Shown piece by piece: positions 13,701-55,246 of a stretch of DNA of 64,000 nt. Under the pieces are notes generated by a model. The model was not told the origin of the DNA. It was given only the letters and a program-made list of their open reading frames with translations, and ran no database searches. The DNA comes from an uncultured Methylococcaceae bacterium (lineage in GTDB: Bacteria; Pseudomonadota; Gammaproteobacteria; Methylococcales; Methylomonadaceae), in assembly GCA_903938485.1 (NCBI GenBank), contig CAJADF010000134.1, positions 1 through 64,000 of the forward strand, written 5' to 3'. The translations under genes were made by a program, and so were the position numbers. Position 1 is the first letter of the stretch; each line of letters opens with the position of its first letter.

Positions 13701-14259
13701 AATACCACCCGTATCAGGTACTGTGCCAGGCGTAGTCAATGATATTCAAAACTTCGGTTGGGAATATGTTTATCACTGTCACATTTTAGGTCATGAAGAA
13801 AATGACTTAATGCGACCTATGATATTTTTACCCAAAAAAGTTACATTACCGGCAGCACCGACTAATGTGACATTAAACGCCACAACGGGTAAATTAACTT
13901 GGACTGATGCAACCCCTATCAATGGTAGTGATAAAAATGGGGTATTAACTAATGGTAACCCCGCTAATGAAATAGGTTTTAGAGTAGAGTACGCTGTTAA
14001 AACTAATAATGTAGTTGGCAGTTATAAAGATGCGTCTAACAAGGTAGGTCAAAGCAACTTTATTGTAATTCCAGACAATATATTATTGAATAATCTAAAT
14101 CCGAATCCAAAACCTAAAATTAATAGCTTAGCAAACTCAGGTGCATTTACGGTAAATCTAACAGCATTACCAGCCAAAACACAATATGTGTTTAGAGTGG
14201 TAGCCGTTAACCAAGCAGGTGAAAGTAATTCAAGTACTGTTGCTTATACTAAGCCTTAA
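10798..14259 (+). CDS. Very large periplasmic multicopper oxidase with inserted beta repeat and C-terminal Fn3-like domain
   Basis: 1153 residues with a signal sequence ending near VDA-GP. All four copper motifs of a three-domain oxidase are present: HLHGG (about residue 274), WYHDH (about 339), HPIHIH (about 861) and HCHILGHEENDLM (about 993). These bind the type-1 copper and the trinuclear cluster that reduces oxygen to water. The residue at the axial type-1 position (Cys+10) is Leu, with Met one further on. Residues about 541-618 are an insert of two glycine-rich SGATATA-type beta repeats. After about 1015 there is a fibronectin III-like domain. Laccase-like family members are normally about 500-650 residues. 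Two bases separate its stop from the next gene. The substrate cannot be told; phenolics, Mn(II) or Cu(I) are options. Confidence 0.9.
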   Translation: MNTKKRNNNNNTLELKSLSLAVMMSLGLFGTHTVDAGPGLVCAGGVLPTGNTCPNAGRLIPTYYANSPTLRKFVDTLPGFTPAGANKFADGKTAGAYIPVAVSDTASYPGSSYYELAIVEYSQKMHSDLPKATTLRGYVQIDRKTTNNQMPNSTSKSSLALKYPDGTQIFIPREKGLVNGVWDHSLDLDNFGNPVMVPAIGLEKPLYFGPLIVATKGVATRVKFSNLLPKGRATIENGQVNRHGDLFLPVDESLPGAGNSTIPLATYPQNRSSIHLHGGDSPWISDGTPHQWFTPETSNLIDPSLKHGSRFNNVPDMPYPGDIAQTVYWPNDQSERFMWYHDHTFGLTRQNAYIGEAAPYFIIDPTEEALLATALPTDVLPIVVQDKTFVASDIQTQDSKWDQAHWGTPGDLWYPHVYEPNLIDTDLLTKTPINPPEINDAGRWDYGPTASTTPFTSVLPLPSGEYGHVSVGPEAYMDTPLVNGVAYPTVTLQPKAYRARFLNGSNDRYFNLSLWQADPTVTSSDGRTNTEIKLVPELIPSTITIVNGGKKYKAPQVVITDLNGYGSGATATAQISPTGVITGITITNPGSSYSNPQVKITDATGSGAAVTLQTIPGRDGGIPDPATAGPSVIRFSTEGGLLPAPVIFKPQTMSYAGTTETAGDWYIAPAERGEAVIDFSKYAGKTLILYNDSSAPVPDGDSRYDYYTGNADLRGVGGSNTTLAGFGPNTRTVMQIKIANTTPAATYDPKGTGGALATVLPKVYAAKADPHIENNIVADGKMTTQTLTQWLAAHKNLNVKTKTIEGGFDVNFGRLIANFGLELPLLNGATPMAYIDKPTDIVEDGKVQYWLIKNNDADNHPIHIHLFSVQVIARVDHLTGQIINPLPYEAGWKENVQNWPFQDTIVALKPKTPVLPFGLPDSVRLMDPTMNPGDATNTSLNPNYVANNVPPNAVPLAFQQYDLTTGALIPPVSGTVPGVVNDIQNFGWEYVYHCHILGHEENDLMRPMIFLPKKVTLPAAPTNVTLNATTGKLTWTDATPINGSDKNGVLTNGNPANEIGFRVEYAVKTNNVVGSYKDASNKVGQSNFIVIPDNILLNNLNPNPKPKINSLANSGAFTVNLTALPAKTQYVFRVVAVNQAGESNSSTVAYTKP

Positions 14260-14260
14260 G

Positions 14261-16066
14261 ATGCATTTAAATAGGTTACTATTATTAATTTGTATCAATT
14301 TATTCCCCATTATTTGCTTAGCAACACCAAGCAATAATGAGGAATATAACAGTAATTTAGTTAAGTTAGGTCAGTCGATATATAATTCTGGACGACTAAT
14401 GAATGGTGAATCCATAACTGCAATTGGCGCTGGAAATACTAAATTATCTGGTAATCAAGCTAGTTGTATTAATTGTCATAAAAATACTGGTTTAGGTGGT
14501 GTAGAAGGTAATGAAGCAATACCACCTATTACTGGCCACGCTTTATTTGGGACGGGTAGAGCAGTTGTGGTGCAATATGACAAACGCTTTAACAAACAAT
14601 TCTCAACTCAACTTAAACCTTACGACAATCAAACATTTTCAGAAGCATTACGTTTAGGTAAACATAATACGGGGCGAGTTTTAAGCACATTAATGCCCAA
14701 ATATAATCTCAATAAAGAGCAACTATTAGCGGTTAGTGCTTACTTGAAAACTTTATCTACGGAATTATCTCCAGGTGTTTCCGATACCGACTTACATTTA
14801 GCCACTGTATTAACTCCAAATGTAAGTGCACAAAGAAAAAAAATATTTTTAGATACCTTAACAAATCTATTAAACACCCATAATGCCAATGTTTCATCTG
14901 GGCACAGGCAAAGAATCCCTATTATTGAGCGCAAACTTAATAACAGAAAATTATGGAAACTACAGGTTTGGGAACTAAAAGGTCCGAGTTCAACGTGGAA
15001 ATCTCAACTCGATAAATGGCAACAAGAGACACCGGTTTTTAGTTTATTATCTGGGCTTTCTGATGATGAGTGGTTACCCATTCAAGATTTCTGTGAAACC
15101 AATAAAGTTGTTTGTTGGCTGCCTAGTATCGAGACTGTTCCATCACAAAATCAAAATCTGAAATATAGTTTATTCTTTACGAAAGGGATAGCGTTAGATG
15201 CTGAAGTATTAGTCAATGAAATTCTACACAAAAAAAACAAACCGCATAAAATTTTGCAATTAGTAAATAATACTTTTAATTCACTTAAAGCGTCAGAAAG
15301 TACACATCTTCTTATTGATAATAAAGCTAATAATATTGAAATTATTGATTTAGTAGGCGCTGAGCAATTAAATAACACACAACTATTAAACGATAAATTG
15401 TCACAATTACAAGCTGATGATATTGTCATCGCTTGGCTTACAAAAGATGAAATAGAGCAACTTTTTAAGCGATCACCGAAACTTACAGCGGCCGTCTATT
15501 TATCAACTAGTTTCACAGGTGAAGTTGCACCTAAATTGCCAGATAATTGGAATAACGATATTTATTTAATTCAAAAACAAGAATTATCAAAATTACGTGC
15601 ATTAAATCTTCTAAGATTCAACGGTTGGTTAAAACATAGAGCATTACCACTGGTAGACGAAAAATTGCAATCCGAAGTTTATTTTGCCTTTAATTCATAC
15701 TCATGGATGATTACCTCTATGCTAAATAATTTCTATACGGATTATTTAATAGAACGAGCACAGGCTAGTTTATCCATGCGTGATTCAATGCAGGTTCAAG
15801 AAGAAGTGCAAACATTAATGATGGGTGGAGGTGGAAGGCGACCTAAAGCAATCCAGACTCCGGATGATAAAACTAAACTAAATCCTATTAATATTCAAAA
15901 TGGAATGGATGTTAATTTATTAGCAAAACGTGAAAGTATTAGTTCATATCCACGTATTAGTCTTGGTAACGATCAAGTGTTTGCTTCGAAAGGTGCGTAC
16001 ATTATCAAATATAACGTTGATACACATGCATATGATGAAAATAATGCTAAATGGGTAGTGCCTTAG
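14261..16066 (+). CDS. Cytochrome c fused to a periplasmic-binding-protein-like domain
   Basis: The chosen ATG, one base after the oxidase stop, gives 601 residues with a proper signal peptide; the longer frame starts inside the oxidase. Residues about 30-165 form a mono-haem c-type domain with CINCH at 69-73 and a possible axial Met in TLMPKYN. The rest resembles a branched-chain-amino-acid-type periplasmic binding protein, ending with a SYPRISLGxxQxFASKGAYI-type motif I associate with such fusions. It is exported and probably takes electrons from, or hands them to, the adjacent multicopper oxidase. Tight spacing implies one operon and translational coupling. The ligand is unknown. Confidence 0.75.
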   Translation: MHLNRLLLLICINLFPIICLATPSNNEEYNSNLVKLGQSIYNSGRLMNGESITAIGAGNTKLSGNQASCINCHKNTGLGGVEGNEAIPPITGHALFGTGRAVVVQYDKRFNKQFSTQLKPYDNQTFSEALRLGKHNTGRVLSTLMPKYNLNKEQLLAVSAYLKTLSTELSPGVSDTDLHLATVLTPNVSAQRKKIFLDTLTNLLNTHNANVSSGHRQRIPIIERKLNNRKLWKLQVWELKGPSSTWKSQLDKWQQETPVFSLLSGLSDDEWLPIQDFCETNKVVCWLPSIETVPSQNQNLKYSLFFTKGIALDAEVLVNEILHKKNKPHKILQLVNNTFNSLKASESTHLLIDNKANNIEIIDLVGAEQLNNTQLLNDKLSQLQADDIVIAWLTKDEIEQLFKRSPKLTAAVYLSTSFTGEVAPKLPDNWNNDIYLIQKQELSKLRALNLLRFNGWLKHRALPLVDEKLQSEVYFAFNSYSWMITSMLNNFYTDYLIERAQASLSMRDSMQVQEEVQTLMMGGGGRRPKAIQTPDDKTKLNPINIQNGMDVNLLAKRESISSYPRISLGNDQVFASKGAYIIKYNVDTHAYDENNAKWVVP

Positions 16067-28216: not shown

Positions 28217-28627
28217 TAACGAAATCCTACATTTACCCATAAAAGCTTGCATATTCTGTAGTAACTATTACAGTAACTTCAAATTACTGCAAGATATCAC
28301 CCTGTCAATCATTGGTTACTACTATTGCACTTCCTGCTTGAAACCAAGGGTACTTATTAACGATTTAAACACAAAATATGTTTGTTAATAGGTTCTACTT
28401 CCATATTAAATTTAGTTAGGGCGCATAGCTTCTTTAAACTTCTAATTAGGCATTGAGTCGTTATCAGTGCACAAACGCCACACCCATTAATATTAATACT
28501 TGATTTATTATCTTTAGAAGGTAGATTAAGCATTGATAGAGGATCTTTTGTTAATAAAAAAAAGCCTTGTTAACCTTTAGCAGCATTTTTGGCTAATATT
28601 TTAATAACATATATTGGATTTTCTTAT
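28217..28627. other. Non-coding region with a possible decayed reading frame
   Basis: About 410 bases without a recognised gene. A small imperfect palindrome (CTGTAGTAACTATTACAG) lies near 28256-28273. On the minus strand, 28357-28533 is an open frame of 58 codons with four cysteines and no ribosome binding site; it matches no family I know and may be chance or a remnant. The plus-strand TTG at 28589 is an upstream extension of the lectin frame and not its start. Confidence 0.35.
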
Positions 28628-29416
28628 ATGAAATGTATCTTTAGAAATAGTTTATTCATTAGTTTAATTTCCGCATCTAGTTTGGCATCGGCTATCGAGT
28701 TTGATGATTTTTCCTCAAAAGTAGCTAATTTACAGCTCAACGGTAATTCAGTTAAGTATGGTGAGAGTTTACGAATTACCCCCGCTTTTTGGTGGCAAGC
28801 AGGTAGTGCATTTGCCACTAAAAAATTAAAGGTATCTAAGTTTAGTACATATTTCAAATTTCAGATTACTGGTCCATTTAGTCCATACGGTGCTGCGGAT
28901 GGTTTTACATTTGCAATACAAGCTAATTCAATAAATGCATTAGGTGCGACAGGACCAGGAGAAGGTTATGGAGGTGATGTAGAAAGCGGTCAGGTTGTTG
29001 GTGGTATAAATAATAGTATTGCAGTTGAATTTGATACTTATCAAAACATAGAATTTAATGATCCTGCTTTACCACACATTGCCATTGTTATTAACGGAGA
29101 TACTAGACATTTTGATTCCTCTTTACCTGTCGAAGAAATATTACCTAGCTTTAATAACGGTAAAGTGTGGTCTGCTTGGATTGATTATGATGGTGAGACA
29201 TTGCAAGTGCGTATAAGTCCAAAAGATAAAAGACCAGAGAATCCGCAGTTAGAAAAAACAATAGATATTGCAGAACTATTGGGTGTTAATAATACAGAAA
29301 ATTATAAAGCCTTCGTGGGTTTTACGGCCGCTACCAAAGGCGGGTATGAAAATCATGACATCCTATTTTGGCAATATCGTGAAGATTATTTCCCAATTGG
29401 TGAGTTAAAAAAATAG
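28628..29416 (+). CDS. Secreted L-type (legume-like) lectin-domain protein
   Basis: 262 residues from the ATG at 28628, which gives a clean signal peptide (cleavage near ASA-IE). The rest is one legume-lectin-like beta sandwich: the early GAADGFTFAIQ strand (DGFxFxIQ type), the GYGG loop, and the metal-site block VEFDTYQN followed by NDPALPHIAI, whose Glu, Asp, Asn, Asp and His match the Ca/Mn ligands of L-type lectins. It should bind carbohydrate outside the cell or in the periplasm. It lies alone between the two tRNA-Leu repeat copies, suggesting acquisition as accessory cargo. No anchor or C-terminal sorting motif is seen. Confidence 0.8.
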   Translation: MKCIFRNSLFISLISASSLASAIEFDDFSSKVANLQLNGNSVKYGESLRITPAFWWQAGSAFATKKLKVSKFSTYFKFQITGPFSPYGAADGFTFAIQANSINALGATGPGEGYGGDVESGQVVGGINNSIAVEFDTYQNIEFNDPALPHIAIVINGDTRHFDSSLPVEEILPSFNNGKVWSAWIDYDGETLQVRISPKDKRPENPQLEKTIDIAELLGVNNTENYKAFVGFTAATKGGYENHDILFWQYREDYFPIGELKK

Positions 29417-36024: not shown

Positions 36025-39000
36025 TTATACATGTGTAATTGATGGTGATACGTTATCAACCGTCAATCCTGTAGGAATAACACCCACTAACTGAATTAAC
36101 TCAATTGAATTATTAAACACATCATCAATTAATACCATCGTATTAGTGCCTTCTTGCCATTCAATAACTGTCACCTCAGTCACAGAGCTTAATGCCATTT
36201 CTATAGCATCAACATGAGCCGATAAAGTAGGCTGTATGTCAGAATCTAACGGAAATGTTGCTACACCGTTTTTAATAGTAATATCACCGATATCGGCACT
36301 CTCATGATCAGCCGCTACGGTAAGTCTTACAGAGGCATCGCCAGATGGTGATAGATAATCAATTTTATCTAGATTTGCACGATAACTGACAATTGATTCA
36401 CCCATAAATGGTTCAGTTGTTGATGCTGGGCTATCGCCGGCATTAACTATAAAGTCACGTATATAATTACCATTAATTTTACTAAAAAGTAAGGCATCAC
36501 CATAGGTAACTTGCAAAGCAGTAATGGGTATAACAATGGGTACATCTTTATTATTATCTATAAAACTGATGGTGCTAATTAAATCTTTTAAATTAGTTAA
36601 ATCATCCAAGTGATTAATGATATTTGCACTATCATCAACTATCGTAATGGTATATTTATCAGTTATATAATCTTGTACAAAAAAGAGACTATTTAAAAAC
36701 TGATCCGAACTAAGTGTTAGTTGACTGCCACTTGTAATATCAATGGAGGTTAATTGGCCATTATCAGCTAATAATTGAATATCCTCTAAATGATCTGAAA
36801 TATGATTTGCGGTATCACTTATGCCAACTTGAGTAACCGTTGGATCTTGGCTAGCTATAATTGCAGCACTCGCTTTAATGCCACCAGAAATTATTAAAGA
36901 ATAACTATCCGTTATTTTACTTAAAACAGCACTATCATCGGTATATTGCACACCCGTTATAGTTAAAGTAGGGGCTGAATCTGTAAAACTTATACTTAAA
37001 ATACTATCAACGTTTTTATTTAAGTCATTTATTTTATCAGTAACATGTGAAACGCTATCAACAATAGTTGCCCCGGTAATAGCTGTGCCTGTTGCCTTCG
37101 CGGTGGCCACTGCGGCTAAAAATGTTGTTACATTGCCTTGAACATAAATAGATTTTTCACCTGATTCAAAAATACTGGGGCCTGTTATGACGGTAAATAA
37201 ATTTGAATCATCTCCATTTATATCAAACAAGGCATTATAACTGGCTTCATTAAAATTTAAACCATTGCTAGGTGTGATATTTTTTACCGTTGAACCCATG
37301 TTGTCTGACTCGGTAATGCTCGTAAAACTGCCTGTATAGGTAGATACTTGATTTGAATCTCTACTTAATGCTGCATCACCCGTTAAATCTAATGTTGCAA
37401 TGGTACCGTTACTAAAAGCTTGCGTGACTTTAATCTCATTAAATAGGTATTTAATGGTGCCAGTATCATCAGCATTAAGTGGAAATGAGCCATTAAAAGT
37501 TTCGGTTGTTTTACCATCTGTCCAAGATATTTGCGTAACAATACCTGATAAGAGATTTGCACTGCCTGGAACAAGGTTAAGATCTCCAGAAAATGTATAG
37601 GTGCTTGCAACAGCCCCTAAGTCATTATCATTCGGTAAAACTATTGATAATGAAGTTATTGCATAATTGTCAAACTTGGAAAAATCGCCAGTTAAAGTAA
37701 TAACTGATCCATCACCTAAAGTCTCTTCCCAGACTGTATCTGTTGAAGATGGAACACCCACATCGATAAGGTAGGTATTGATTATTTGTGAGGGGATGCT
37801 GACAAAATCTTGCTGAGAACCTATTACGTTAGCAATTAAACTAAAATCAATCGGTGTAACTAAATGATATTTATAATTACTATTATTGATTAGAGTTAAT
37901 ATATCCCCGTAATTTGCTAATTGAGATTCTGTGATAGTTAAAATCGGGTTTGTCCCTGTTAATATCAGCCCAGCTAACTGACCATTAGTTGATAATGTTT
38001 CAATTGCATCTAAATTGCTAGACACGTTAGTAGCGTTATCACTTACAGTGACTTGGCTAACATTTTGATTCATAGAAGCGGCTATAGCTGCATTAGCGGT
38101 AATGGTTCCGTCAATAGTTAATGTATAACTATCTGTAATTTTACTTAAAACAGAATGATCACTACTAAACTGTGCACCCGTAATAGTTATCGTCGGTATT
38201 GCATCCGTTAAATTGATATGTTCTAAAGCATTACCCATTGCTTGTAATGCATCCATTTTTTCAAGAACATGTGCCACACTATCAATAATAGTTGCACCCG
38301 TTAAACTTTTGCTTGCCAATACAGTGGCTACCGTACCATTGGCATAAAGAGTTTTATTCCCCGTTGTTAAAACGTTAAGATTGGGAAGTACTGTAAATAA
38401 ATTAGAATCATTTGCATCAGTATTAAATAAAGCCGTAAATACCGCTGATTCAAATTTCAATCCCGATTTAGGCGCAATATTAATACTGTCGCCAATACTG
38501 TCAGACAATAATATGCTATTAAAACTACCTGTATAAGACGTCGAATTATCTGGATGGGTTACCCACTGTACGTTTCCAATCATATCTAGCGTATAAGTTA
38601 TGTTATCAATAACTTGAATTACTTTTATTTCAGTTATCGCATATCTTAAATCACCCTGAGCATCAGCAACCAATGGAAAAGTACCGTTTACTGCTAAATG
38701 TGTTGCATTATCAGTGCTAATCCAATTCAATTGCGTAATAGTCCCTGATGGATCATTTGCGCCCGTTGTGTCAACAATTACATTTCCGGTTAAGGTATAG
38801 GTACCCTCAGTCATTCCAGCGCTATTATCAACGCCTAGACTTAAGCTTGCAGACGTTATTTTATAAGACTCGGCATTTATGTTGGTTACAGATAAGGCTA
38901 AAGTAGTTGCACCCTCATCAAACGTTTCTGTCCAGCTAGCATTCGAAACTAAAGGTGGATTAATAGATGAGGCTAGATATTGCGTGATAGCCGGTACCAA

Positions 39001-40539
39001 GGAATCATATAAATCTTGGTGAATATCACCTATAACATTTGCAATACCTGAAAAGTCTGCTTGATGCGTTAAATGATATTTATAATTTCCCGCATTGATA
39101 AGTGCTAAAACTTCTGCATCATTAGTTAACTGCTCAGCACTCAGTGACAATATTGGGGTCTTATCACTGAGTGTTAAAGTATCAAGTTGTCCGCCCGCTA
39201 AGTAACTTTGCAAGGCATCTATATTTTTAGAAACTTTTGTTGCGGTATCCAGAACTGAAAACCTTGAGATATTTGAATCTTGACTAGCTACTAGTGCTGC
39301 ATCTATATTGATTGGACTATTGATCGTAAAACTGAAAGTCGAATTGATCTTAGCAAATACAGCATAACTTTTATTATATTGAGATCCACTGACAGTTATC
39401 GCAGGTACGTCGTCTGTTAAATTAATACTTTTTAACTTACTACCCAATGCAGATAAAGCATCAAGTTTACTCAGTACATGTGCTGCAGTATCTTCAATAA
39501 TAGCCGCTGTAATTAGCTTATTCCCTAAAGCATTAGCGATTGTATCGTGAACATAGAGTGACTTTGTGCCGGTAGGTAAATATTGACTGTTATTTTCTGT
39601 GGGCAGATTTGCAAAAATATCCGCATCATAACTATCATTAAAAGCTAAGCCTTTTTTGGGTGCGACATTCATGCTATCACCCATATTGTTACTTAAAATG
39701 ATTTTGGAAATAGCACCGGTATATTTAACAGTCCCTGCTTCATCATTAGTCACCAATTTTGCGTTACCCGTAATATCCAGGGTATTGATTATGGTATCAG
39801 TTTGTTGTGTAACTTTAATTTCGTTGGTTAATAAAGCTAAATTACCATTTTTATCCGGTAAAAGTGCATAACTCCCTTTTTGGAATAAAGTAGTTACAAC
39901 ATTGGCCTCAGTATTAGGGTCAGTACTCGTCCAAATTGCGCTTACTTGATTAATAGTTCCTTTAGTTTCATTGACGCCACTAGGATCTATAGAAATATTA
40001 CCTGTAAATTGATAGGTCCCTGCGGCAAATCCACTTGAATTATTTTCTGGTAAAACTATATTAGCGCCACTAATGGTATAGAGCGCTTTTGTAAATGTTC
40101 CAGTTAAGGTAACAGAAGTACCATCAGAATAATTGCCTTGCCAAGTTTTACTATTTATAACTGGCGTTATTGTTTCAGTTGTCAAGTAGCTATCAATAAT
40201 ATTGCCAGGAACGAGATAAAAACTTGAGTTATCAACTATGACACCCGCTAATGGCTCAAAATCAGTTTGGGTTATTAGATGATAACTGTATAAACCACCA
40301 TTAATAAGTTCCAACACATGACTGTTACTGTCTATTTGATCTGGCGTTAATTTTAAAATAGGTTTTTTATCAGATAAGGTAATACTGGTTAATAATCCAG
40401 CATCCACCAATTCCTGTAAATGATCTAAATTATCAGAAACCTTAAGTGCAGTATCTTTAATCAACAGGGATATCACATCTGGATTATTTTTAAAATTATC
40501 CCAAGCCGATGTAACGGTATAATAACGAATTGTTGACAT
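36025..40539 (-). CDS. Giant repeat-containing surface protein (possible type I secretion substrate)
   Basis: 1504 residues with no N-terminal signal peptide. It consists of about three full repeats of roughly 405 residues and a shorter fourth, starting near residues 20, 426, 830 and 1240. Each unit opens with a SDTAxxVSxNLDALQ-type block followed by GQLTSLTLSDKTPILxLSxxQL, then a beta-rich core with SGxxxxxSW and DSxGDSxNIAPKxGL. The C-terminus contains an acidic, hydrophobic patch (TMVLIDDVFNNSIELIQLVGV) of the sort seen at type I secretion ends. An adhesin-like or matrix role is inferred. No RTX nonapeptides are present. Confidence 0.7.
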   Translation of the reverse strand: MSTIRYYTVTSAWDNFKNNPDVISLLIKDTALKVSDNLDHLQELVDAGLLTSITLSDKKPILKLTPDQIDSNSHVLELINGGLYSYHLITQTDFEPLAGVIVDNSSFYLVPGNIIDSYLTTETITPVINSKTWQGNYSDGTSVTLTGTFTKALYTISGANIVLPENNSSGFAAGTYQFTGNISIDPSGVNETKGTINQVSAIWTSTDPNTEANVVTTLFQKGSYALLPDKNGNLALLTNEIKVTQQTDTIINTLDITGNAKLVTNDEAGTVKYTGAISKIILSNNMGDSMNVAPKKGLAFNDSYDADIFANLPTENNSQYLPTGTKSLYVHDTIANALGNKLITAAIIEDTAAHVLSKLDALSALGSKLKSINLTDDVPAITVSGSQYNKSYAVFAKINSTFSFTINSPINIDAALVASQDSNISRFSVLDTATKVSKNIDALQSYLAGGQLDTLTLSDKTPILSLSAEQLTNDAEVLALINAGNYKYHLTHQADFSGIANVIGDIHQDLYDSLVPAITQYLASSINPPLVSNASWTETFDEGATTLALSVTNINAESYKITSASLSLGVDNSAGMTEGTYTLTGNVIVDTTGANDPSGTITQLNWISTDNATHLAVNGTFPLVADAQGDLRYAITEIKVIQVIDNITYTLDMIGNVQWVTHPDNSTSYTGSFNSILLSDSIGDSINIAPKSGLKFESAVFTALFNTDANDSNLFTVLPNLNVLTTGNKTLYANGTVATVLASKSLTGATIIDSVAHVLEKMDALQAMGNALEHINLTDAIPTITITGAQFSSDHSVLSKITDSYTLTIDGTITANAAIAASMNQNVSQVTVSDNATNVSSNLDAIETLSTNGQLAGLILTGTNPILTITESQLANYGDILTLINNSNYKYHLVTPIDFSLIANVIGSQQDFVSIPSQIINTYLIDVGVPSSTDTVWEETLGDGSVITLTGDFSKFDNYAITSLSIVLPNDNDLGAVASTYTFSGDLNLVPGSANLLSGIVTQISWTDGKTTETFNGSFPLNADDTGTIKYLFNEIKVTQAFSNGTIATLDLTGDAALSRDSNQVSTYTGSFTSITESDNMGSTVKNITPSNGLNFNEASYNALFDINGDDSNLFTVITGPSIFESGEKSIYVQGNVTTFLAAVATAKATGTAITGATIVDSVSHVTDKINDLNKNVDSILSISFTDSAPTLTITGVQYTDDSAVLSKITDSYSLIISGGIKASAAIIASQDPTVTQVGISDTANHISDHLEDIQLLADNGQLTSIDITSGSQLTLSSDQFLNSLFFVQDYITDKYTITIVDDSANIINHLDDLTNLKDLISTISFIDNNKDVPIVIPITALQVTYGDALLFSKINGNYIRDFIVNAGDSPASTTEPFMGESIVSYRANLDKIDYLSPSGDASVRLTVAADHESADIGDITIKNGVATFPLDSDIQPTLSAHVDAIEMALSSVTEVTVIEWQEGTNTMVLIDDVFNNSIELIQLVGVIPTGLTVDNVSPSITHV

Positions 40540-46198: not shown

Positions 46199-48436
46199 TT
46201 AATCAATTTTCAACCACCTTAAGCGATTAGCGTTACTTACTACGGTCAATGATGACATTGCCATAGCGGCACCGGCAATCATAGGGTTTAATAAAACACC
46301 AAAGATTGGATATAACAAGCCAGCGGCAACCGGAATACTTAGCGTGTTATATAAGAAAGCACCTAACAAGTTTTGTTTTATGTTGGACACGGTAACTTTT
46401 GACAACTGAATGGCTTCTGCTATTTTTATTAACGAACCTTGTAATATTACAATATCAGCACTTTCGATTGCCACATCAGTACCCGTACCGATGGCAAAAC
46501 CTACATCGGCTTGAGCTAATGCGGGGGCGTCATTAATCCCATCACCAACCATACCGACAATTTCACCTTGATCTTGCAACATTTTGACTATATCCGCTTT
46601 GTCTTGAGGTAAAACCTGGGCTTTTACTTCTGTTACACCGGCTTGATGAGCGATAGCATTAGCGGTAATTAAATTATCACCTGTTACCATAATTACACGA
46701 ATACCTAAGTTTATAAATCGCTGCACGGCTAGTGCAGAATCCGTTTTTATAGGATCAGCGATTGAAAGGATACCCACCAATACAGTATCGACCGCTAGTA
46801 AAATTGGTGTTTGCCCTTGTAAGGCGAGTTTGTCAAGAATAGGTGTTACATGATCCAAATTTATGTGTTCAGCATCCAGTAGCGCTTTATTACCTAATGC
46901 AATACGCTGATTATTAAGCATAGCACTGACCCCGAAACCAGATAGCGCTTCAAATTGATCTACTTTATGTAAATTAAGTTGTTTATTTTCTGCCGCTGTT
47001 AATAGTGCTTTTGCTAAAGGATGCTCAGAGCCAACTTCAATACTAGCCGCTAATTGTAATATTTGATCAGCCGTATAATTTTTATCAAGCACTTCAATGC
47101 TAGAAAGATTGGGTTTTCCTTGTGTAACAGTTCCCGTTTTATCCAAAATCAAACAAGTCGTATTCCCCGCTGTTTGTAAAGCATCACCCTTACGAATTAA
47201 TATACCTAATTGCGCAGCTCTTCCTACTGCAACCATCACTGAAATGGGTGTGGCTAAACCTAAAGCACAAGGACAAGCAATAACTAAAACGGTCATTGAG
47301 GTTACAAAGGCGTAAGAAATCGCTGGATCTGGGCCAATTAACCACCAGACTATAAATGTGAAAATAGAAATAGCGACCACAACAGGTACAAAAATCCCTG
47401 ATATTTTATCCGCTAAACGTGCAATTTCTGGTTTACTATTTTGTGCATGTTTAACACTTTTAATGATTTGAGCTAGAGCGGTATCTCTTCCTATACGGGT
47501 AGCTTTAAAAATAAAGCTTCCACTTAAGTTTACAGTACCTGCAACAACCTCTGACCCTATCACCTTCTCTAACGGAATTGATTCTCCCGTTAACATCGAT
47601 TCATCTACTACAGAACTACCTTCTATTAATATGCCGTCAACAGGTATTTTTTCTCCAGGTCTAATGCGGATGGATTCACCTAATCCAACTTGATCTATAT
47701 AAATATCTAATGTTTCACCCTCACGAATAACACGTGCGGTTCTTGGTTGTAAGCCAATCAATTGCCTTATTGCTAAAGAAGTCTTACCTCTCGCTAAGGT
47801 TTCTAAAGCTGCTCCTAAATTAATAAACGCCAAAATAACAACTGCAGCTTCGAAATAAGCATGCTTTGCCAAACTAGGTAGATAAGCAGAATAATCAATG
47901 ACCACACAAGAATAAAGCCAAGCCGAACCCGTGCCTAATGCAATTAATGTATCCATATTGGCTTGTCTTAGTTGTAAAGATTTGATGGCACCACTATAAA
48001 AATGCCATCCCGAATACACTAAAACTGATAACGTTAGCAAAGCTATTTCGGACCAAAACCAATGACCCGACGTTGTTGTCATGTCGGGCAACCCATCTAA
48101 CATGTCAGTTAGCATAAGGAACGCACCAAAAATACCCGCCACTGTCGCTTTTTTTATGAGTTGATGATATCGAATTAATTCGAGTTGCTCTTGCGCTTCA
48201 GGATCTTCAAATTCTTCCATCACTGCGGCATCAAAACCTGCCTCTTTAACAGATTTGATCAATAAATCCACCTCTGCATTACCCCTAATCAGAGCATTAT
48301 GATCAGCAAAATTTACACTGACAGAACTGACTCCAGCAATATTTAATAAGGCGCCTTCTATGGCACTCACACAACCAGCACAACGCATACCTAAGATAGA
48401 TAGCTGAACTTCATCTTGATGAGTATTCATATTCAT
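46199..48436 (-). CDS. copA: Cu(I)-exporting P1B-type ATPase CopA
   Basis: 745 residues. One N-terminal HMA domain has the metal site GMRCAGC (about residues 17-23). There are eight membrane helices with CPC in [13 protein letters not shown] (about residue 390), phosphorylation motif DKTGTVTQG (about 430), the HP motif in GSEHPLAK, and the hinge [10 protein letters not shown]. Cu(I) specificity is supported by YN in helix 7 (FLYNTLSIP) and MxxSS in helix 8 ([11 protein letters not shown]). It pumps Cu(I) out of the cytoplasm to the periplasm. It follows the CopZ-like gene by about 30 bases; together they form the minus-strand arm of a copper-related neighbourhood. Confidence 0.95.
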
Positions 48437-48468
48437 GAGTTGTCTTGAAAGGCGTTTAAATAAACGTA

Positions 48469-48678
48469 TTAATTAACAATAAAGCCCGCGTCAGTGATGA
48501 CTTTTGAAACGGTATCTAAATCAATTTGTGCATCATCAAATTCTACAGCAACTGTACTCGTTTTATGATTAGCGACAACTGAAGACACGCCCGATAGTGC
48601 GCTTAGTTTACTAGTAACATTTGCTTCACAGCCACCACATTTCATGCCGGTAACACTTATTAATATATTTTCTAACAT
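48469..48678 (-). CDS. copZ: CopZ-like heavy-metal-associated copper chaperone
   Basis: 69 residues forming a single HMA ferredoxin-like fold with the metal-binding GMKCGGC (residues 11-17). It delivers Cu(I) to CopA in the cytoplasm. The small size, neighbouring copA and common orientation support the assignment. The upstream region carries a hairpin-like inverted repeat at 48699-48716. Confidence 0.92.
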
Positions 48679-48698
48679 ACCTATTCTCTCTAAGATCA

Positions 48699-48716
48699 GT
48701 GTTATCTTTATAACAC
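48699..48716. promoter_or_regulatory. Inverted repeat upstream of copZ-copA, operator or hairpin
   Basis: GTGTTAT at 48699-48705 and ATAACAC at 48710-48716 are exact 7-bp inverted repeats around CTTT, 21 bases before the copZ start codon. It could be an operator or a leader hairpin. It does not resemble a canonical CueR box. Confidence 0.4.
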
Positions 48717-48835
48717 ATTCGACTAACTACGCGTAAATATGATACAACTTGTACAGTAACAATAGTCTGGTATATTTTATTAAACAAAATTCATAACCCA
48801 TTCACGAAACGTACGCTTAAATTTATAAAAAAAAT

Positions 48836-49459
48836 ATGCAATTAAATACGATTACTAATCAAACCATTGCTCTCGCTGGAATTGCTCAGGCTGCTGCATT
48901 AGTACAACAGTTGGCTGTGAAAGGATCCTGCGATTCAGTAGCTTTTGAATCAAGTATTAAAAGTATTTTAAAAATCGATTCTGATAGTGTCATTGATGTA
49001 TACGGTTCATTACCTGCATTAAAATTAGGTATCACCCAACTCAATACACAAATGTCTAGTTTTAAAGTAGTTAATCCAGAACAAGCGCGATATTCTGCAG
49101 CATTAGTTTTTTTAGAAAATCAAGTTTCGAATCGTAAAGATTTACTAAATACGATCAATATTGGTGTTGTAAGAGCGCAATCGCAAAGTGAACACTTTGG
49201 TGAGTTACATGAAAATGTCTTAGCAAACCTAAGTGAAGTCTATCAAAAAACCATAAGTACCTTACAACCAAGAATTATGGTGAACGGTAACCCTGATTAT
49301 TTATCTAAACCAGAAATTGCAAATAAAATCAGAGCCTGTTTATTAGCGGGTATTCGTTCTGCAATACTTTGGCGTCAATGTGGCGGTACTCGCTGGAAGT
49401 TTTTATTTTATCGCAAAAAAATACAAGCTGAATTACAAGAACTATTAAAACAAATTTAA
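48836..49459 (+). CDS. hflD: HflD-family protein
   Basis: 207 residues, matching HflD (about 213). The all-helical protein begins NTITNQTIALAGIAQAAALVQQLA, with the typical YGSLPALKLGITQLNTQM and the C-terminal LLAGIRSAILWRQCGGTRWKFLFYRK. E. coli HflD is a peripheral membrane protein that modulates lambda CII stability; its housekeeping role is unclear. The usual mnmA-hflD-purB context is missing; here it lies 9 bases upstream of an ABC ATPase gene. Confidence 0.9.
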   Translation: MQLNTITNQTIALAGIAQAAALVQQLAVKGSCDSVAFESSIKSILKIDSDSVIDVYGSLPALKLGITQLNTQMSSFKVVNPEQARYSAALVFLENQVSNRKDLLNTINIGVVRAQSQSEHFGELHENVLANLSEVYQKTISTLQPRIMVNGNPDYLSKPEIANKIRACLLAGIRSAILWRQCGGTRWKFLFYRKKIQAELQELLKQI

Positions 49460-49468
49460 TTAGTACTC

Positions 49469-50395
49469 ATGTCTACGCTGATAGAAGTCGACCATCTAAG
49501 TCGATATTTTGGAAAAGTTTGCGCCGTTAATGATATAAGTTTTACTCTTGAGCGGGGGCAAGTCTTAGGCTTTTTGGGTATCAATGGCGCTGGCAAAACC
49601 ACTACTTTACAAATGCTGAGCGGTAACTTAGCCCCTTCTAACGGCAACATTAAAATTAAAGACTTTACTATTATTAATAATCCTATTCAAGCTAAACAAT
49701 GCATAGGTTATTTACCAGATACGCCACCCCTGTATAAAGACTTAACCGTTACAGAATTTTTAATTTATTGCGCAAAAATACATGGCGTATCAAAACATGA
49801 AATTAAAAAAACATTAGAAAATGTCTTACAACGCTGTGCCTTAATATCAGTTAAAAATCGATTAATCTCCAATTTATCTAAAGGTTACCAACAAAGAATT
49901 GGAATAGCACAAGCACTCATACATAACCCTGACATCATCATTCTTGATGAACCCACCGTGGGTTTAGATCCATTACAAATCAAAGAAATACGTCAATTAA
50001 TTAAAAAACTAAGCGAAGATCATGGCATTATTATTTCTACGCATAATCTAAGTGAAGCTGAGGAAGTTTGCTCACAAGTACAAATAATTCACAAAGGTTG
50101 TTTAATCGTTAAAGAACGTATTACAGAATTAATGCAGTCGATTAAACAATGCAGTTTACTAATAACCACTAAAAAACCAATTGACTGTGTAGTTTTAAAT
50201 GCAATTGATGGCGTTAATGCAATTGAAAAAATATCAGATTATCAAGTTAAGATTAACTATCTTGACTCTTTAGATCCTACCCAATCTATTATTCAATGCA
50301 GTCTGTTAAATAATTGGGCATTAATTGAAGTAACTCCTATTAAAAAAAGTCTTGAAGAAATCTTTATTTCTTATATAGATAAAGAACAATCATAA
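49469..50395 (+). CDS. ABC transporter ATPase, GldA/CcmA type
   Basis: 308 residues with Walker A GINGAGKTTTLQM (about residues 38-50), signature LSKGYQQRIGIAQAL, Walker B IIILDEPTVGLDP and switch His in ISTHNL, then a C-terminal extension of about 90 residues as in GldA/NatA ATPases. It drives the downstream ABC-2 permease. The spacing is 9 bases after hflD and 2 bases before the permease, so it is one operon. Resemblance to NosF-type and gliding-type ATPases leaves the substrate open. Confidence 0.9.
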   Translation: MSTLIEVDHLSRYFGKVCAVNDISFTLERGQVLGFLGINGAGKTTTLQMLSGNLAPSNGNIKIKDFTIINNPIQAKQCIGYLPDTPPLYKDLTVTEFLIYCAKIHGVSKHEIKKTLENVLQRCALISVKNRLISNLSKGYQQRIGIAQALIHNPDIIILDEPTVGLDPLQIKEIRQLIKKLSEDHGIIISTHNLSEAEEVCSQVQIIHKGCLIVKERITELMQSIKQCSLLITTKKPIDCVVLNAIDGVNAIEKISDYQVKINYLDSLDPTQSIIQCSLLNNWALIEVTPIKKSLEEIFISYIDKEQS

Positions 50396-50397
50396 CA

Positions 50398-51150
50398 ATG
50401 ATATTAACTATTGCTGCACAAGAATTTAAAAGCCATTTTATTTCTCCTCTCGCTTGGATTCTTATGGCTGTTTTACAAATCATACTAGGTTATTTATTTT
50501 TAACTCAAGTTGAAACATTCACTTTAATGCAAGATAAATTATTAAATATCACGGGAGCACCCGGTTTAACAGATGTTATCATCACCCCTTTATTCAGTAA
50601 TGCAGGCGTCATATTTTTATTAGTAACGCCATTACTGACTATGCGAGTAATTTGTGATGAACGACGTAACAAAACATTATGCCTCCTGTTTAGTGCTCCA
50701 GTAACTAACTCTGATATTATTCTGGGTAAATATCTAGGCACATTAGGTTTGATGTGGGTGATAGTAATTTTGGTTGGTTTAATGCCATTTACATTATTAC
50801 TCGGTGGAGATATAGATACTGGAAAATTCTTTGCAAATGGCATGGCATTAATCTTATTGGTTGCAGCCTTTGCATCTACAGGTATTTTAATGTCAACATT
50901 AGCTGAACATCCTACCGTTGCCGCCATCAGTACATTTGGGATATTAATAGTGCTGTGGTTATTAAATATCAATCAAACTATGAGTGATAAACCAAACGAG
51001 TTAATCCAAGGATTATCATTGTTATATCACTATCAAAACATCCAAACAGGCTTGATTGACAGCCGTGATATTATTTACTTTCTGCTGTATATCTGTACAT
51101 TTATTGTGTTATCAATCTATTGTCTTGCAAATCAACGCTTACAAAAATAA
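50398..51150 (+). CDS. ABC-2 permease, GldF type
   Basis: 250 residues and six transmembrane helices; the block MRVICDERRNKTLCLLFSAPVTNSDIILGKYLG is the cytoplasmic coupling segment of GldF/NosY-like permeases. It pairs with the upstream ATPase, and its last base overlaps the start of the next gene (TAATG). The transported substrate is unknown. Confidence 0.88.
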   Translation: MILTIAAQEFKSHFISPLAWILMAVLQIILGYLFLTQVETFTLMQDKLLNITGAPGLTDVIITPLFSNAGVIFLLVTPLLTMRVICDERRNKTLCLLFSAPVTNSDIILGKYLGTLGLMWVIVILVGLMPFTLLLGGDIDTGKFFANGMALILLVAAFASTGILMSTLAEHPTVAAISTFGILIVLWLLNINQTMSDKPNELIQGLSLLYHYQNIQTGLIDSRDIIYFLLYICTFIVLSIYCLANQRLQK

Positions 51151-51755
51151 TGATCATCCATAGCATTCATCAACGTATTAGCTTTAAAAATAGCTTAGCC
51201 ACTATTTTAATCTTATTACTAATTGCGCTCACTTCTTGGATAAGCAATAAATATATTTATCAAGTCGATATAAGCAACAGTTCAACCAATTCTTTAACTT
51301 TAGAAAGTCAAAAAGTTATTAAATACTTGCCAGAGTCAATTGATATCACTGCCTTTATCGAAAAAGGCCAGTCTTTAAGAATTCAAATTATTAAACTCAT
51401 TAATCTTTATAAAATCCACAAAAAAAACATCTCTCTTAATTTTATTGACCCAGAAGAATATTCAGATCAAGTTGATGCTGATAATAAAAGTACTAAAATA
51501 GTCTTTTTTGTTAATTACCAAAATCATACAAAAAAGCTTAACTATTTAGATGAACACTCTTTAACTCAGGCTCTAATTGAATTTACTAATGCCAACGACA
51601 AAATTAAAGAAGTCACTATTAATGAGAGTGAGGATAGAGTCTTGAATTTTTCTGAAAAACAAATTTTTGCGCTTAATCTTTTTTACCTTTTGTTATTACC
51701 TAGTGTTTTTATTATCCTTGGCTTAATTATTAGGCAGCACCGTAAATCAAAATAA
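51150..51755 (+). CDS. Miniature GldG-like membrane protein
   Basis: 201 residues from the ATG overlapping the permease stop; a longer frame starts inside the permease. Architecture: an N-terminal helix (about 20-38), a periplasmic domain of about 130 residues opening with SSTNSLTLESQKVIKYLPESIDITAFIEKG, which is the GldG/ABC_transp_aux beginning, and a C-terminal helix ending in RQHRKSK. Standard GldG-like partners exceed 450 residues; the central part is missing here while both ends are kept. It appears intact as a gene, so this is a compact variant and not an obvious frameshift. Confidence 0.7.
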   Translation: MIIHSIHQRISFKNSLATILILLLIALTSWISNKYIYQVDISNSSTNSLTLESQKVIKYLPESIDITAFIEKGQSLRIQIIKLINLYKIHKKNISLNFIDPEEYSDQVDADNKSTKIVFFVNYQNHTKKLNYLDEHSLTQALIEFTNANDKIKEVTINESEDRVLNFSEKQIFALNLFYLLLLPSVFIILGLIIRQHRKSK

Positions 51756-51812
51756 ACAAAGCGATTTGTTATACTAACTATTCATTACATAACTTAAAGT
51801 ACTTTCTAACGC

Positions 51813-53483
51813 ATGACATTAAAAAAAACATTAGTCATTCTTACGGTAATAATAACGTTAGTTGGTGCTGGCTACAGTATAGTTATTTTCTATCCTCAAG
51901 CACTTAATCCTTCAGGAATTAATGCTCCGGGTACCGTTTATAATCAAACTAGAGACAATAATAGTATTGTTAAACCCTGTTCAAATGAACACCCTGAATG
52001 GCGCTCTGAACAAATTATTGAGGGTGTATCAATAAAAGCCGCTCCAGATTGTGAACCAGATAATCCTTATGAAGTGGCAACTTCTGTTAAAGGGACTAAC
52101 CAAGTATCAATGAGCACGTTGATGCAAACCAACTTTGCGCAAGATGCTTTAACTATGGGAGAGGACCTCGATGATGATGGTGATCCAGATATAATTCATA
52201 TCAAATTAGAAGTCATAGAGCTGAACGGATCGAGTCCAGATGGAAATTTCCTAATAAATACTTATGACATTGCACCGGGTATACAACCAGGATTATGGGT
52301 ATATGCGCCAAAATCCCGCGGTATGGCAGTTAAAAACTTCAATTCTTTGGTTGCGAGTCCTATTTTAAGAGCGCCCTCACCTGTTATACGAGTAGAACAG
52401 GGGGACAAGGTCTATATCACACTAGAAAACACGCATTATTTACCTCATACGATACACTTACATGGAGTCGATCATCCTTGGGTTAATTCTAAAGGCGAAG
52501 ATAATGATGGCATGGAAGAACATGCTGTTTTTCCCGGCAAAAGCCATACTTATGAAATTCAACCCAGACATGTTGGCACCATGCTTTATCACTGTCATGT
52601 ACAAACTGCTCAACATTTTATGATGGGATTGGGCGGAATGTTTATCGTTGAAAAAAATCAAGCCAATAATTGGGTACAAACCTTCAATATAGGGGCTGGT
52701 CAGGTTCGCCATCCAGCAAGCTCCGTAAATAAAGTTTATGACCAAGAGTACGATTTACATTATCAATCGATAGATAAAAAATTGGCTCAAATCATTCAAA
52801 ATGCAAATGATCCACGATTAATTGCTGAGCATATGGCACGTGATTACAATATTACAGAATCATTTGAAAACTATTTTTTATTGAACGGACATTCATTTCC
52901 TTACACGCTTCGTGATGCCATGATTATTGCTTCAGGGAATGAAAACATCAAATTACACATCGCAAACTTTCAGCGTAATGCAATTGCTCTGCATATACAT
53001 GGACATAAAGCTACGTTAACAGCCCTAGATGGTGTGGAATTAAATGAATCTCAACAAATAACTAGAGATGTATTTGATATAGCAACCGCACAAAGAAATG
53101 ATATTCATCTTAAAACTCAAAATGATGGATTGCATAGTTACGGCCCTGGTTTATGGATGTTCCATGATCACTCACCCATGGGTACAACAACAGATGGTAT
53201 GGAACCGGGTGGCAATATGGCAATATTAGCTTATAAATCATTGTTAGATGAACAAGGTATGCCAAAAATGCATGAGCATTTATTCGATCAAGTGTTTAAT
53301 AAAGACTATTATGCTAAAAAACAAGCCGTCTGGACGGATGGTCCTTTTCAGGTATTATTGGGTGATGCTGGTCTTGTATCACCAAACTATTTACATATCA
53401 TATTATTTGGCTTAGGCATTGGCTTATTAGTTGGCTTAATGATCATTGTAATTCTGTTGTTAAAACGGTCACTCAAATCATGA
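51813..53483 (+). CDS. Membrane-anchored multicopper oxidase with type-1 site in the N-terminal domain
   Basis: 556 residues with an N-terminal helix (7-29) and a C-terminal helix (about 525-550), so most of it faces the periplasm. Copper motifs: HLHGVDHPW (about 216), YHCHVQTAQH (His260-Cys261-His262), HIHGH (about 394) and FHDHSP (about 449). The only copper-type Cys is in the N-terminal domain, unlike classical three-domain laccases, where it is C-terminal. This resembles two-domain oxidases with the T1 copper in domain 1. An acidic DLDDDGDPD segment may bind calcium. The stop overlaps the next gene (ATGA). Confidence 0.85.
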   Translation: MTLKKTLVILTVIITLVGAGYSIVIFYPQALNPSGINAPGTVYNQTRDNNSIVKPCSNEHPEWRSEQIIEGVSIKAAPDCEPDNPYEVATSVKGTNQVSMSTLMQTNFAQDALTMGEDLDDDGDPDIIHIKLEVIELNGSSPDGNFLINTYDIAPGIQPGLWVYAPKSRGMAVKNFNSLVASPILRAPSPVIRVEQGDKVYITLENTHYLPHTIHLHGVDHPWVNSKGEDNDGMEEHAVFPGKSHTYEIQPRHVGTMLYHCHVQTAQHFMMGLGGMFIVEKNQANNWVQTFNIGAGQVRHPASSVNKVYDQEYDLHYQSIDKKLAQIIQNANDPRLIAEHMARDYNITESFENYFLLNGHSFPYTLRDAMIIASGNENIKLHIANFQRNAIALHIHGHKATLTALDGVELNESQQITRDVFDIATAQRNDIHLKTQNDGLHSYGPGLWMFHDHSPMGTTTDGMEPGGNMAILAYKSLLDEQGMPKMHEHLFDQVFNKDYYAKKQAVWTDGPFQVLLGDAGLVSPNYLHIILFGLGIGLLVGLMIIVILLLKRSLKS

Positions 53484-54172
53484 AACAATTTATAGTTGCA
53501 TTGCTAATATCCTGTACTTCACTGTGTTCTTTAGCTATGAATCATAGAGGTATGTTGATGGATGAATATGGGATGATAATGAATGCAAATAGCGATCAAT
53601 TACCCCGAGACTGTCAAAAAATATCAGAAAATGTCGATATTACAATTCACGCTGGTCAACAATATGCTGAAAAATTCACTGGTAAAATGTTCGCTTTTGA
53701 CAATCAAGAATGGAACGTTAAACCCTGTGCGAAAATAAACATCACTTTTATTAATGATGATCAAATTCGTCACCAAATTATGATTCACGGTTTACCGGGC
53801 TATTTATATCCCGAGGGCATGTTTCATCTTGAACTTAATGGTGCAGGTCAATTGCAAGCATCTCTCATATTACCCAGTCAGAAGAAAACTTATCTTGTTC
53901 ATTGCGAACTTCCGCAACACATGGAAAAAGGTATGAAAGCACAACTTAAAGTTGATGGAGGCGATGGTAATTTACCTAGTATTCCTGGAATAAGTGAGCC
54001 TATTAAAAAGGATTTATACAAAACTGATTGGTCAAAATTTGCCTATGCACTGATTGCAATAAGCGCGCTGTTTGCAATTATTTTTGTCTTAGTGATAGTC
54101 ATTAATTCGCCAAGGATTAGTGCTTTAACCGCAAAAATTAAAGAAAAATTATTACACAAAACAAAACTATAA
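53480..54172 (+). CDS. Membrane-anchored cupredoxin
   Basis: 230 residues with a signal peptide, a Met-rich N-terminal patch (MNHRGMLMDEYGMIMN), a cupredoxin domain and a C-terminal transmembrane helix (about 188-210). The type-1 copper ligands look complete: His in RHQIMIH, then VHCELPQHMEKGM giving Cys142, His at +5 and Met at +10. It should carry electrons in the periplasm and overlaps the oxidase gene, so it is probably its redox partner. The Met-rich patch may also bind copper. Confidence 0.85.
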   Translation: MKQFIVALLISCTSLCSLAMNHRGMLMDEYGMIMNANSDQLPRDCQKISENVDITIHAGQQYAEKFTGKMFAFDNQEWNVKPCAKINITFINDDQIRHQIMIHGLPGYLYPEGMFHLELNGAGQLQASLILPSQKKTYLVHCELPQHMEKGMKAQLKVDGGDGNLPSIPGISEPIKKDLYKTDWSKFAYALIAISALFAIIFVLVIVINSPRISALTAKIKEKLLHKTKL

Positions 54173-54197
54173 TTTATTACACTATCAATAAAATACC

Positions 54198-54656
54198 ATG
54201 ACTAAAATATCTTGTTACAGTGCAGTCTTAATAGCTCTAATAACTTCAACAGCAGTTGCAGATGAAATCGGTTGTATTACCACTACTTGGAAGCTAATTG
54301 GATCTAACAATAAAATATGTGTACAAGCTTTTGATGATCCAAAAGTCTTAGGCGTATCTTGTCACATCAGCCAAGCTAAAGCGGGGGGTATTTCCGGAGC
54401 ACTAGGTGTTGCTGAAGACCCATCACAATTTTCTATAGCTTGTAGACAAATTGGCCCCATTGTTATTAAAGATAAATTACCTGCAGAAGAAACCGCGTTT
54501 ACTGAAAGTACTTCTCTTTTCTTTAAAGAAACTAAAGTATCACGCATGTTTGATGCAAAAAGAAATACCTTAATCTATGTCGCTATTAGCAGAAAAATTA
54601 TAGATGGCGCCCCTGCAAATAGTATATCAACAGTCCCCATAATGCCGTGGAATTAA
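54198..54656 (+). CDS. creA: CreA-family periplasmic protein
   Basis: 152 residues with a signal peptide (cleavage near AVA-DE), then the CreA pattern: EIGCITTTWKLIGSNNKICVQAFDDP, CHISQAKAGGISGALGVAED, and the C-terminal VPIMPW. The function of CreA is unknown; the name comes from the E. coli creABCD locus. It lies 25 bases after the cupredoxin gene, likely in the same operon. Confidence 0.92.
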   Translation: MTKISCYSAVLIALITSTAVADEIGCITTTWKLIGSNNKICVQAFDDPKVLGVSCHISQAKAGGISGALGVAEDPSQFSIACRQIGPIVIKDKLPAEETAFTESTSLFFKETKVSRMFDAKRNTLIYVAISRKIIDGAPANSISTVPIMPWN

Positions 54657-54751
54657 AATTATTAAAGATGATAGATTGACTTTACAAACACTAGAGTTAA
54701 GTTTACGTTGATATATTATATTAATCATTAACAATAAATAGAGGAGGCACT

Positions 54752-55246
54752 ATGCATAGCTTTAAAAACAAACATAATTTAATCATTGGCTCTATACTCA
54801 TATTAGGCTTCAATACACTGAATAACCTGGCACTAGCAGAATTAACTGAGACGCCATCTGGACATGAAAGCCACCACGAGCAAACCAGTACTGAATGGCC
54901 TGGCGTTTATAACGGGTTTGTACCTTGTGAAGATTGTAATGGCATTAAAACTTCACTCGCATTAAATAGCAATAATACCTATTTATTAATTAGACAATAT
55001 GTGGGTAAATCAGAACGAGAAATTGTTGAAAAAGGTAAATTTAGCACAGGCAGCGATAACAATATTTTGGTTTTAACCCCTCGTAATAATATTGAAGCTG
55101 GAGTACATTATTATTCAGTGGGTGAAAACAGTCTCACTCAACTTGATAATAACGGTAACGCTATTACAGGAAAAAAAGCTGAAAAATATAGACTCATGAA
55201 AAATGATATAAAACCACCCAAAGGTGGTGGACACGCCGGGCATTAA
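54752..55246 (+). CDS. NlpE-like copper-homeostasis protein
   Basis: 164 residues with a signal peptide; no Cys follows the cleavage region, so it is a soluble or weakly anchored version, not a lipoprotein. A WPGVYNGFVPCEDCNGIKTSLAL block matches the NlpE N-terminal domain with its CxxC. His-rich flanks (GHESHHEQ near 38 and GGGHAGH at the end) suggest metal binding. It has a strong GAGGAGG ribosome binding site before the ATG. It closes the copper neighbourhood. Confidence 0.82.
   Translation: MHSFKNKHNLIIGSILILGFNTLNNLALAELTETPSGHESHHEQTSTEWPGVYNGFVPCEDCNGIKTSLALNSNNTYLLIRQYVGKSEREIVEKGKFSTGSDNNILVLTPRNNIEAGVHYYSVGENSLTQLDNNGNAITGKKAEKYRLMKNDIKPPKGGGHAGH

Follow-up and report, generated by a model that had tools for sequence, protein, structure and literature searches.

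Ten genes lie side by side between positions 46199 and 55246 of a 64,000-nucleotide stretch of DNA from an uncultured Methylococcaceae bacterium (contig CAJADF010000134.1, assembly GCA_903938485.1; the whole stretch is referred to here as the window), and they raise the question of whether they form a single copper-handling system. An earlier note had read them in this way, with an ATP-binding cassette (ABC) transporter of the GldF/NosY type that might help to mature or protect a multicopper oxidase (MCO) and a cupredoxin. We have found that the row consists of three independent conserved pieces that have come together, namely copA-copZ/hflD, gldA-gldF-gldG and MCO-cupredoxin. Because the MCO-cupredoxin pair is conserved, has intact copper ligands, co-occurs with copper membrane monooxygenases (CuMMOs; particulate methane monooxygenase, pMMO, and its relatives) and adjoins pmo genes, we assign it, with a probability of roughly 0.6, to the CuMMO accessory set, as a membrane-anchored periplasmic copper-redox unit that would help to load or protect pMMO copper. 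The analysis is computational and uses window numbering, with loci labelled L, genomes G and one genus g35. The genome that contains the window comprises 2.5 Mb in 134 contigs; among named organisms it is most closely related to Methylococcaceae (Methylobacter, Crenothrix and Methylovulum). The two genes of the pair are as follows.

51813-53483, plus strand: MCO, a two-domain multicopper oxidase (from Pfam, ligand conservation, nearest structures and a structural model)
53480-54172, plus strand: cupredoxin, membrane-anchored, with a Met-rich N-terminus (from Pfam, pairing with MCO, alignment and a structural model)

The genes of the window were mapped onto neighbourhoods from about 120 genomes of its family, and neighbourhood sets were drawn up for the 80 best MCO loci, for 60 loci around gldF, and for 20 hflD loci in which gldF is absent or elsewhere. 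MCO and cupredoxin are adjacent in 78 of the 80 MCO loci; the exceptions, L077 and L105, are cases in which the contig or the retrieved stretch stops at the MCO. In the window the stop codon of the MCO gene overlaps the start codon of the cupredoxin gene (ATGA). The pairing of oxidase and cupredoxin proposed by the earlier note is thus borne out as truly conserved. Of two further MCO subgroups, one (51-58% identical) is likewise cupredoxin-paired in 13/13 loci, and the other (52-54% identical) occurs without cupredoxin pairing in 7/7.

The MCO contains two cupredoxin domains, with sequence matches to both domains of enzymes of the 3g5w/2zwn type. These two entries are its nearest structures by sequence and by model, the latter aligning over 278-283 residues with Z 27-28, and the relationship is a distant one (28% identity to 3g5w across 283 aligned residues). 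The model, with a predicted local distance difference test (pLDDT) score of 84, adds a helix at the N-terminus and one of membrane type at the C-terminus. The type 1 ligands are H212, C261 and H268, with L273 in the axial position, and the trinuclear-cluster histidines are 215, 217, 260, 262, 394, 396, 451 and 453. All eight trinuclear histidines and the type 1 His-Cys-His set are invariant across 117 homologues and paralogues. Alignment puts Leu at the axial position in 113 of these and Met in four, and a type 1 site of high potential is probable because the axial residue is Leu. Two-domain MCOs of the 3g5w/2zwn type are homotrimers with the trinuclear cluster between subunits; our structure predictions are of monomers only. 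The models for CueO and for CopA(PcoA)-type oxidases scored far below their cut-offs on this protein (CueO, 32.9 bits against 525; copper_res_A, 32.5 bits against 479).

In the cupredoxin, a type 1 set of H98, C142, H147 and M152 was assigned by motif. The alignment shows further invariant residues (M101, H103, M114, H141 and the Cys pair C45/C83), which together with the Met-rich N-terminus suggest a second copper site. The cupredoxin model (pLDDT 91) has C-terminal helices, and its fold lies near those of nitrosocyanin, auracyanin and copper nitrite reductase (CuNIR) domains, the top ranks being tied. A sequence search of the PDB with the cupredoxin alone gave no match, and a cupredoxin profile gave weak matches only.

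Co-occurrence with CuMMO was scored with an MCO threshold of E at most 1e-40 and PmoA/AmoA as the partner. Among 369 gammaproteobacterial genomes, MCO was present in 11 and PmoA/AmoA in 11, with both in nine (Fisher 9.5e-15). When genomes outside the order were collapsed to families, four families had both, two had MCO only and one had CuMMO only, with p between about 2e-6 and 2e-5 according to how many families are assumed. PmoA was likewise missing from every one of the seven MCO-negative genomes of the order (p 5e-6). In genus g35, which we infer to be Cycloclasticus-like, 12 genomes have both and five have neither, and the lone apparent exception has a pmoB fragment. Neither the agreement within a genus nor the set of four separate families depends on a single ancestral event.

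Gene order points in the same direction. Within the window's family, one genus has eight loci (L085, L087, L094, L095, L096, L099, L102 and L107) at which MCO-cupredoxin lies directly upstream of pmoC-pmoA-pmoB on the same strand, and the pmo subunits of L085 were confirmed by PF04896, PF02461 and PF04744. After pmoCAB, at least five of the eight loci have genes for a small membrane protein and copC on the opposite strand, with a TlpA-like thioredoxin gene beyond. The small membrane protein is a PmoD homologue by its profile match to 6cpd (E 2.7e-26), and C40 and C65 are invariant among the PmoD homologues. The order pmo(C)AB-PmoD-MCO-cupredoxin recurs in two other families (L242 and L243), which brings to three the lineages in which the pair adjoins pmo genes; PmoD-MCO-cupredoxin is found with no pmo genes alongside at L247, L249, L250 and L257. 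The CuMMO accessory set includes PmoD in several lineages. PmoD is not next to the pair in the clade of the window, and a search of the window's genome with one divergent PmoD gave no match, which, given the divergence of the query, is not evidence of absence. MCO-cupredoxin displays both properties examined for CuMMO accessory genes, that is, co-occurrence with CuMMO and linkage to pmo in more than one lineage.

Two loci have respiratory genes beside the pair. At L247, in the complete genome G254, PmoD-MCO-cupredoxin stands beside a cytochrome oxidase subunit III gene, and PmoA/PmoB were not detected in that genome; to our knowledge, PmoD has been reported from CuMMO genomes only. At L246, the pair is beside a haem-copper oxidase subunit I-like gene and a c-type cytochrome; its genome, G531, has three identical-scoring amoA copies and is probably that of a marine ammonia oxidizer.

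Several observations weigh against a role of the pair in the CuMMO accessory set. Most genomes of the window's family have no pmo genes next to the pair, and at L246 and L247 it is haem-copper oxidase genes that lie beside it. The co-occurrence tests are only partly corrected for shared ancestry. CuMMO was not detected in two genomes with MCO (G254, which is complete, and G373), and this MCO was not detected in two genomes with CuMMO (G238 and G422).

Published work on PmoD bears on how the pair might act. In M. capsulatus, the PmoD homologue MCA2130, encoded beside an MCO, is expressed less without copper (PMC6688271), loss of PmoD hampers copper-dependent growth on methane (PMC6189053), and some pmoD homologues lie near multicopper oxidase genes (PMC6189053, PMC6688271). 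As part of the CuMMO accessory set, the MCO would accept electrons, supplied either by Cu(I) or by the cupredoxin, at its type 1 site and would reduce O2. The Met/His-rich cupredoxin could ferry copper or electrons among the MCO, PmoD and the periplasmic domains of PmoB, and oxidase and cupredoxin, with PmoD, would load or protect the copper sites of pMMO. CopZ-CopA may provide periplasmic Cu(I); CopZ-CopA can feed an MCO, as CutO depends on it (PMC8456105), and its tie to the present locus is synteny with hflD only. A stronger version, in which PmoD, the two-domain oxidase and the cupredoxin together make up a periplasmic relay of copper or electrons dedicated to gammaproteobacterial CuMMOs, is conceivable, and we put it forward tentatively as the less probable form of the proposal. 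Such a relay, if real, is the sort of missing component that has been invoked for isolated pMMO being less active than pMMO in whole cells.

Two-domain oxidases, cupredoxins, PmoD and the presence of MCO genes near some pmoD genes were already known. Our literature search, mostly without subscription papers, found the proximity of PmoD and MCO and no description of an MCO-cupredoxin family as a pair that tracks CuMMO. pMMO is central to biological methane removal, and how the cell supplies it with copper and electrons is not settled; a pair that tracks CuMMO and in some lineages shares a cluster with PmoD is directly testable genetically.

The main rival reading is one of general copper tolerance, in which a periplasmic cuprous oxidase and its copper carrier, with no direct role in the monooxygenase, would be required by copper-rich methane and ammonia oxidizers on account of the large amounts of copper that they handle. 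CueO and CutO are examples of MCOs that detoxify Cu(I), and CutO needs CopZ-CopA (PMC8456105). Such a module would give the same phyletic pattern, and G254 and G373 would be accommodated directly. However, the pair adjoins pmo genes and PmoD in separate lineages, the CueO and CopA/PcoA oxidase models do not match the MCO, and the MCO is missing from many copper-tolerant gammaproteobacteria of the sample, which leaves copper tolerance as a serious competitor that we nonetheless hold to be unlikely. Still less probable is a service of the pair in the nitrogen-oxide or respiratory metabolism of methane and ammonia oxidizers (nitrite, nitric oxide or a terminal oxidase). The closest solved structure is a blue copper oxidase of Nitrosomonas europaea, and L246 and L247 place the pair in a respiratory setting, but haem-copper oxidase contexts are confined to these two loci, the similarity to 3g5w is distant, and the type 1 axial residue is by alignment Leu rather than Met. 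Assignment to the CuMMO accessory set is thus the reading that we prefer.

The remaining genes of the row bear on the single copper system with which we began. All of the genes that the earlier note had named are present, in position and in strand; those flanking the pair are given below with their Pfam and NCBIfam matches.

46199-48436, minus strand: CopA (TIGR01511, 586 bits; cut-off 397)
48469-48678, minus strand: CopZ (PF00403)
48836-49459, plus strand: HflD (PF04356; NF001246 above its cut-off)
49469-50395, plus strand: GldA-like ATPase (TIGR03522, 284 bits; under the equivalog cut-off of 402.6)
50398-51150, plus strand: GldF-like permease (TIGR03518, 115 bits; under the equivalog cut-off of 288.5)
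51150-51755, plus strand: mini-GldG, 201 amino acids (DUF7088 only; TIGR03521, 26.9 bits against a cut-off of 389.9)
54198-54656, plus strand: CreA (PF05981)
54752-55246, plus strand: NlpE-like protein (PF04170)

Mini-GldG starts with the ATG at 51150, in place of the TTG at 51120 in the open reading frame (ORF) list. Spacing along the plus-strand row, from hflD to the NlpE-like gene, is 9, 2, -1, 57, -4, 25 and 95 bp in order, and because these gaps are short a single long transcript is possible. A scan of the row for consensus promoters and terminators found no more sites than in shuffled sequences. In the NlpE-like protein, a CxxC motif accompanies the N-terminal domain typical of NlpE; a lipobox Cys was looked for, and the signal region contains no Cys. 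Neither NosD nor NosZ was found among the ORFs and families of the interval, which therefore does not present a NosDFY neighbourhood. The complete row recurs in the closest relatives only (L034, L035 and L037; L036 is without CreA, and L033 is cut by a contig end), and for this reason the full gene combination is a local arrangement.

Each piece of the row has its own distribution. In most family genomes copA-copZ is directed away from hflD irrespective of the ABC genes, and it lies beside hflD in 18 of the 20 hflD loci chosen for lacking gldF there, two of which keep gldA alone. The transporter genes are in turn downstream of hflD in 51 of 64 gldF genomes, hflD being the anchor of both neighbourhoods. 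gldF was detected in 68 of 121 family genomes; around half of the family lack the transporter genes, and a similar share keep MCO-cupredoxin with no detectable gldF. In five of the 64 genomes gldF and the MCO are separated by no more than 8 kb, and in 11 genomes the two are on the same contig at least 80 kb apart. Contig breaks conceal some adjacencies (G062 is a probable case), too few to alter this picture. In genomes that we take to be Methylomonas-like, gldFG lie apart from hflD and gldA. In two genomes the transporter genes are themselves split, with gldA staying with hflD and gldF-gldG elsewhere (L124 and L196 in G010; L123 and L197 in G008).

Synonymous distances among close relatives tell a similar story. 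L034 resembles L036 in hflD, gldA and gldF (0.1-0.2) and L035 in MCO and cupredoxin (about 0.1, versus at least 0.85 to L036). Because the nearest partners differ, the hflD-gldAF and MCO-cupredoxin parts have been exchanged separately in L034-L036. In the mosaic L034, the recombination boundary falls between gldG and mco.

The copper genes that the earlier note had described are present, whereas membership of the GldF/NosY-like transporter among them is not supported. The note had itself named a lack of co-occurrence in other genomes as a result that would count against it, and for the ABC part this is the result obtained; with gldF near the MCO in so few genomes, the idea that the transporter matures or protects the pair is not supported. 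CopA-CopZ, counted in the note as part of one system, neighbours hflD independently of the ABC genes, and a functional tie between CopAZ and gldAFG was rejected, as copAZ-hflD persists where gldFG are missing. CreA and the NlpE-like gene, which it had also included, occur after the pair in the nearest relatives alone and are recent neighbours of it. The ABC transporter looks like a passenger, a separate hflD-linked module that stands beside the pair in one clade. A single copper system, in which a NosFY-like GldAF-miniGldG matures or protects MCO-cupredoxin with CopAZ, CreA and NlpE as parts, can appeal to adjacent genes on one strand with short gaps, a GldF-like permease and copper genes close by, but the rarity of gldF near the MCO, the persistence of the MCO without gldF and of copAZ with hflD without gldFG, and the separate recombination in L034-L036 make it very improbable, and one copper operon including the ABC genes was rejected. 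Annotations should accordingly not group the oxidase with the ABC transporter, CopAZ, CreA and NlpE as a single copper system.

A second point of interest of the locus is mini-GldG. Full-length GldG relatives (448 amino acids) comprise a DUF7088 domain, an ABC_transp_aux domain and, at the C-terminus, a helix of membrane type. The clade of the window has lost about 247 residues in frame, the entire ABC_transp_aux domain among them, and has kept the reading frame, the N-terminal DUF7088 domain and the C-terminal helix. GldG is shortened in one subclade of a genus and full-length in the rest, the mini form also occurring in L033-L037, L125 and L154 and the full form in L038, L058 and L068. The ratio of nonsynonymous to synonymous substitution rates (dN/dS) is 0.18-0.27 for mini-GldG versus about 0.11 for full-length pairs, a range indicative of purifying selection; this range and the lack of stops rule out a decaying pseudogene. 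Mini-GldG is a natural minimal GldG.

Elsewhere in the window, 10798-16066 encodes an unrelated second large multicopper oxidase (1153 amino acids, with PhsA/CueO-like and fibronectin type III domains), and the protein that comes after it carries a cytochrome c domain. A secreted legume-lectin-domain protein (28589-29416) and a repetitive protein of 1504 amino acids with no Pfam match (36025-40539) are also encoded.

Among known systems, the gliding-associated ABC transporter GldA-GldF-GldG has the same gene order as the transporter genes of the window and homologous subunits, but the latter score under the equivalog cut-offs, are attached to hflD and include an internally truncated GldG. CueO and CutO resemble the MCO as periplasmic multicopper oxidases, and a cuprous oxidase role is plausible for it as well; unlike the MCO, CueO is a three-domain enzyme. 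The MCO shares with 3g5w (the Nitrosomonas europaea blue copper oxidase) and 2zwn (a metagenome two-domain laccase) the type 1 cysteine in the first domain, the trinuclear ligands HxH/HCH and HxH/HDH and the same fold (Z 27). It differs from them in an extra N-terminal region of ~120 residues, a C-terminal membrane anchor, an aligned type 1 axial Leu where theirs is Met, and an obligatory cupredoxin partner. Like PmoD and the other accessory genes linked to pmoCAB (PMC6189053), MCO-cupredoxin tracks CuMMO, and PmoD-MCO-cupredoxin clusters occur in several families, although the pair is a different set of proteins.

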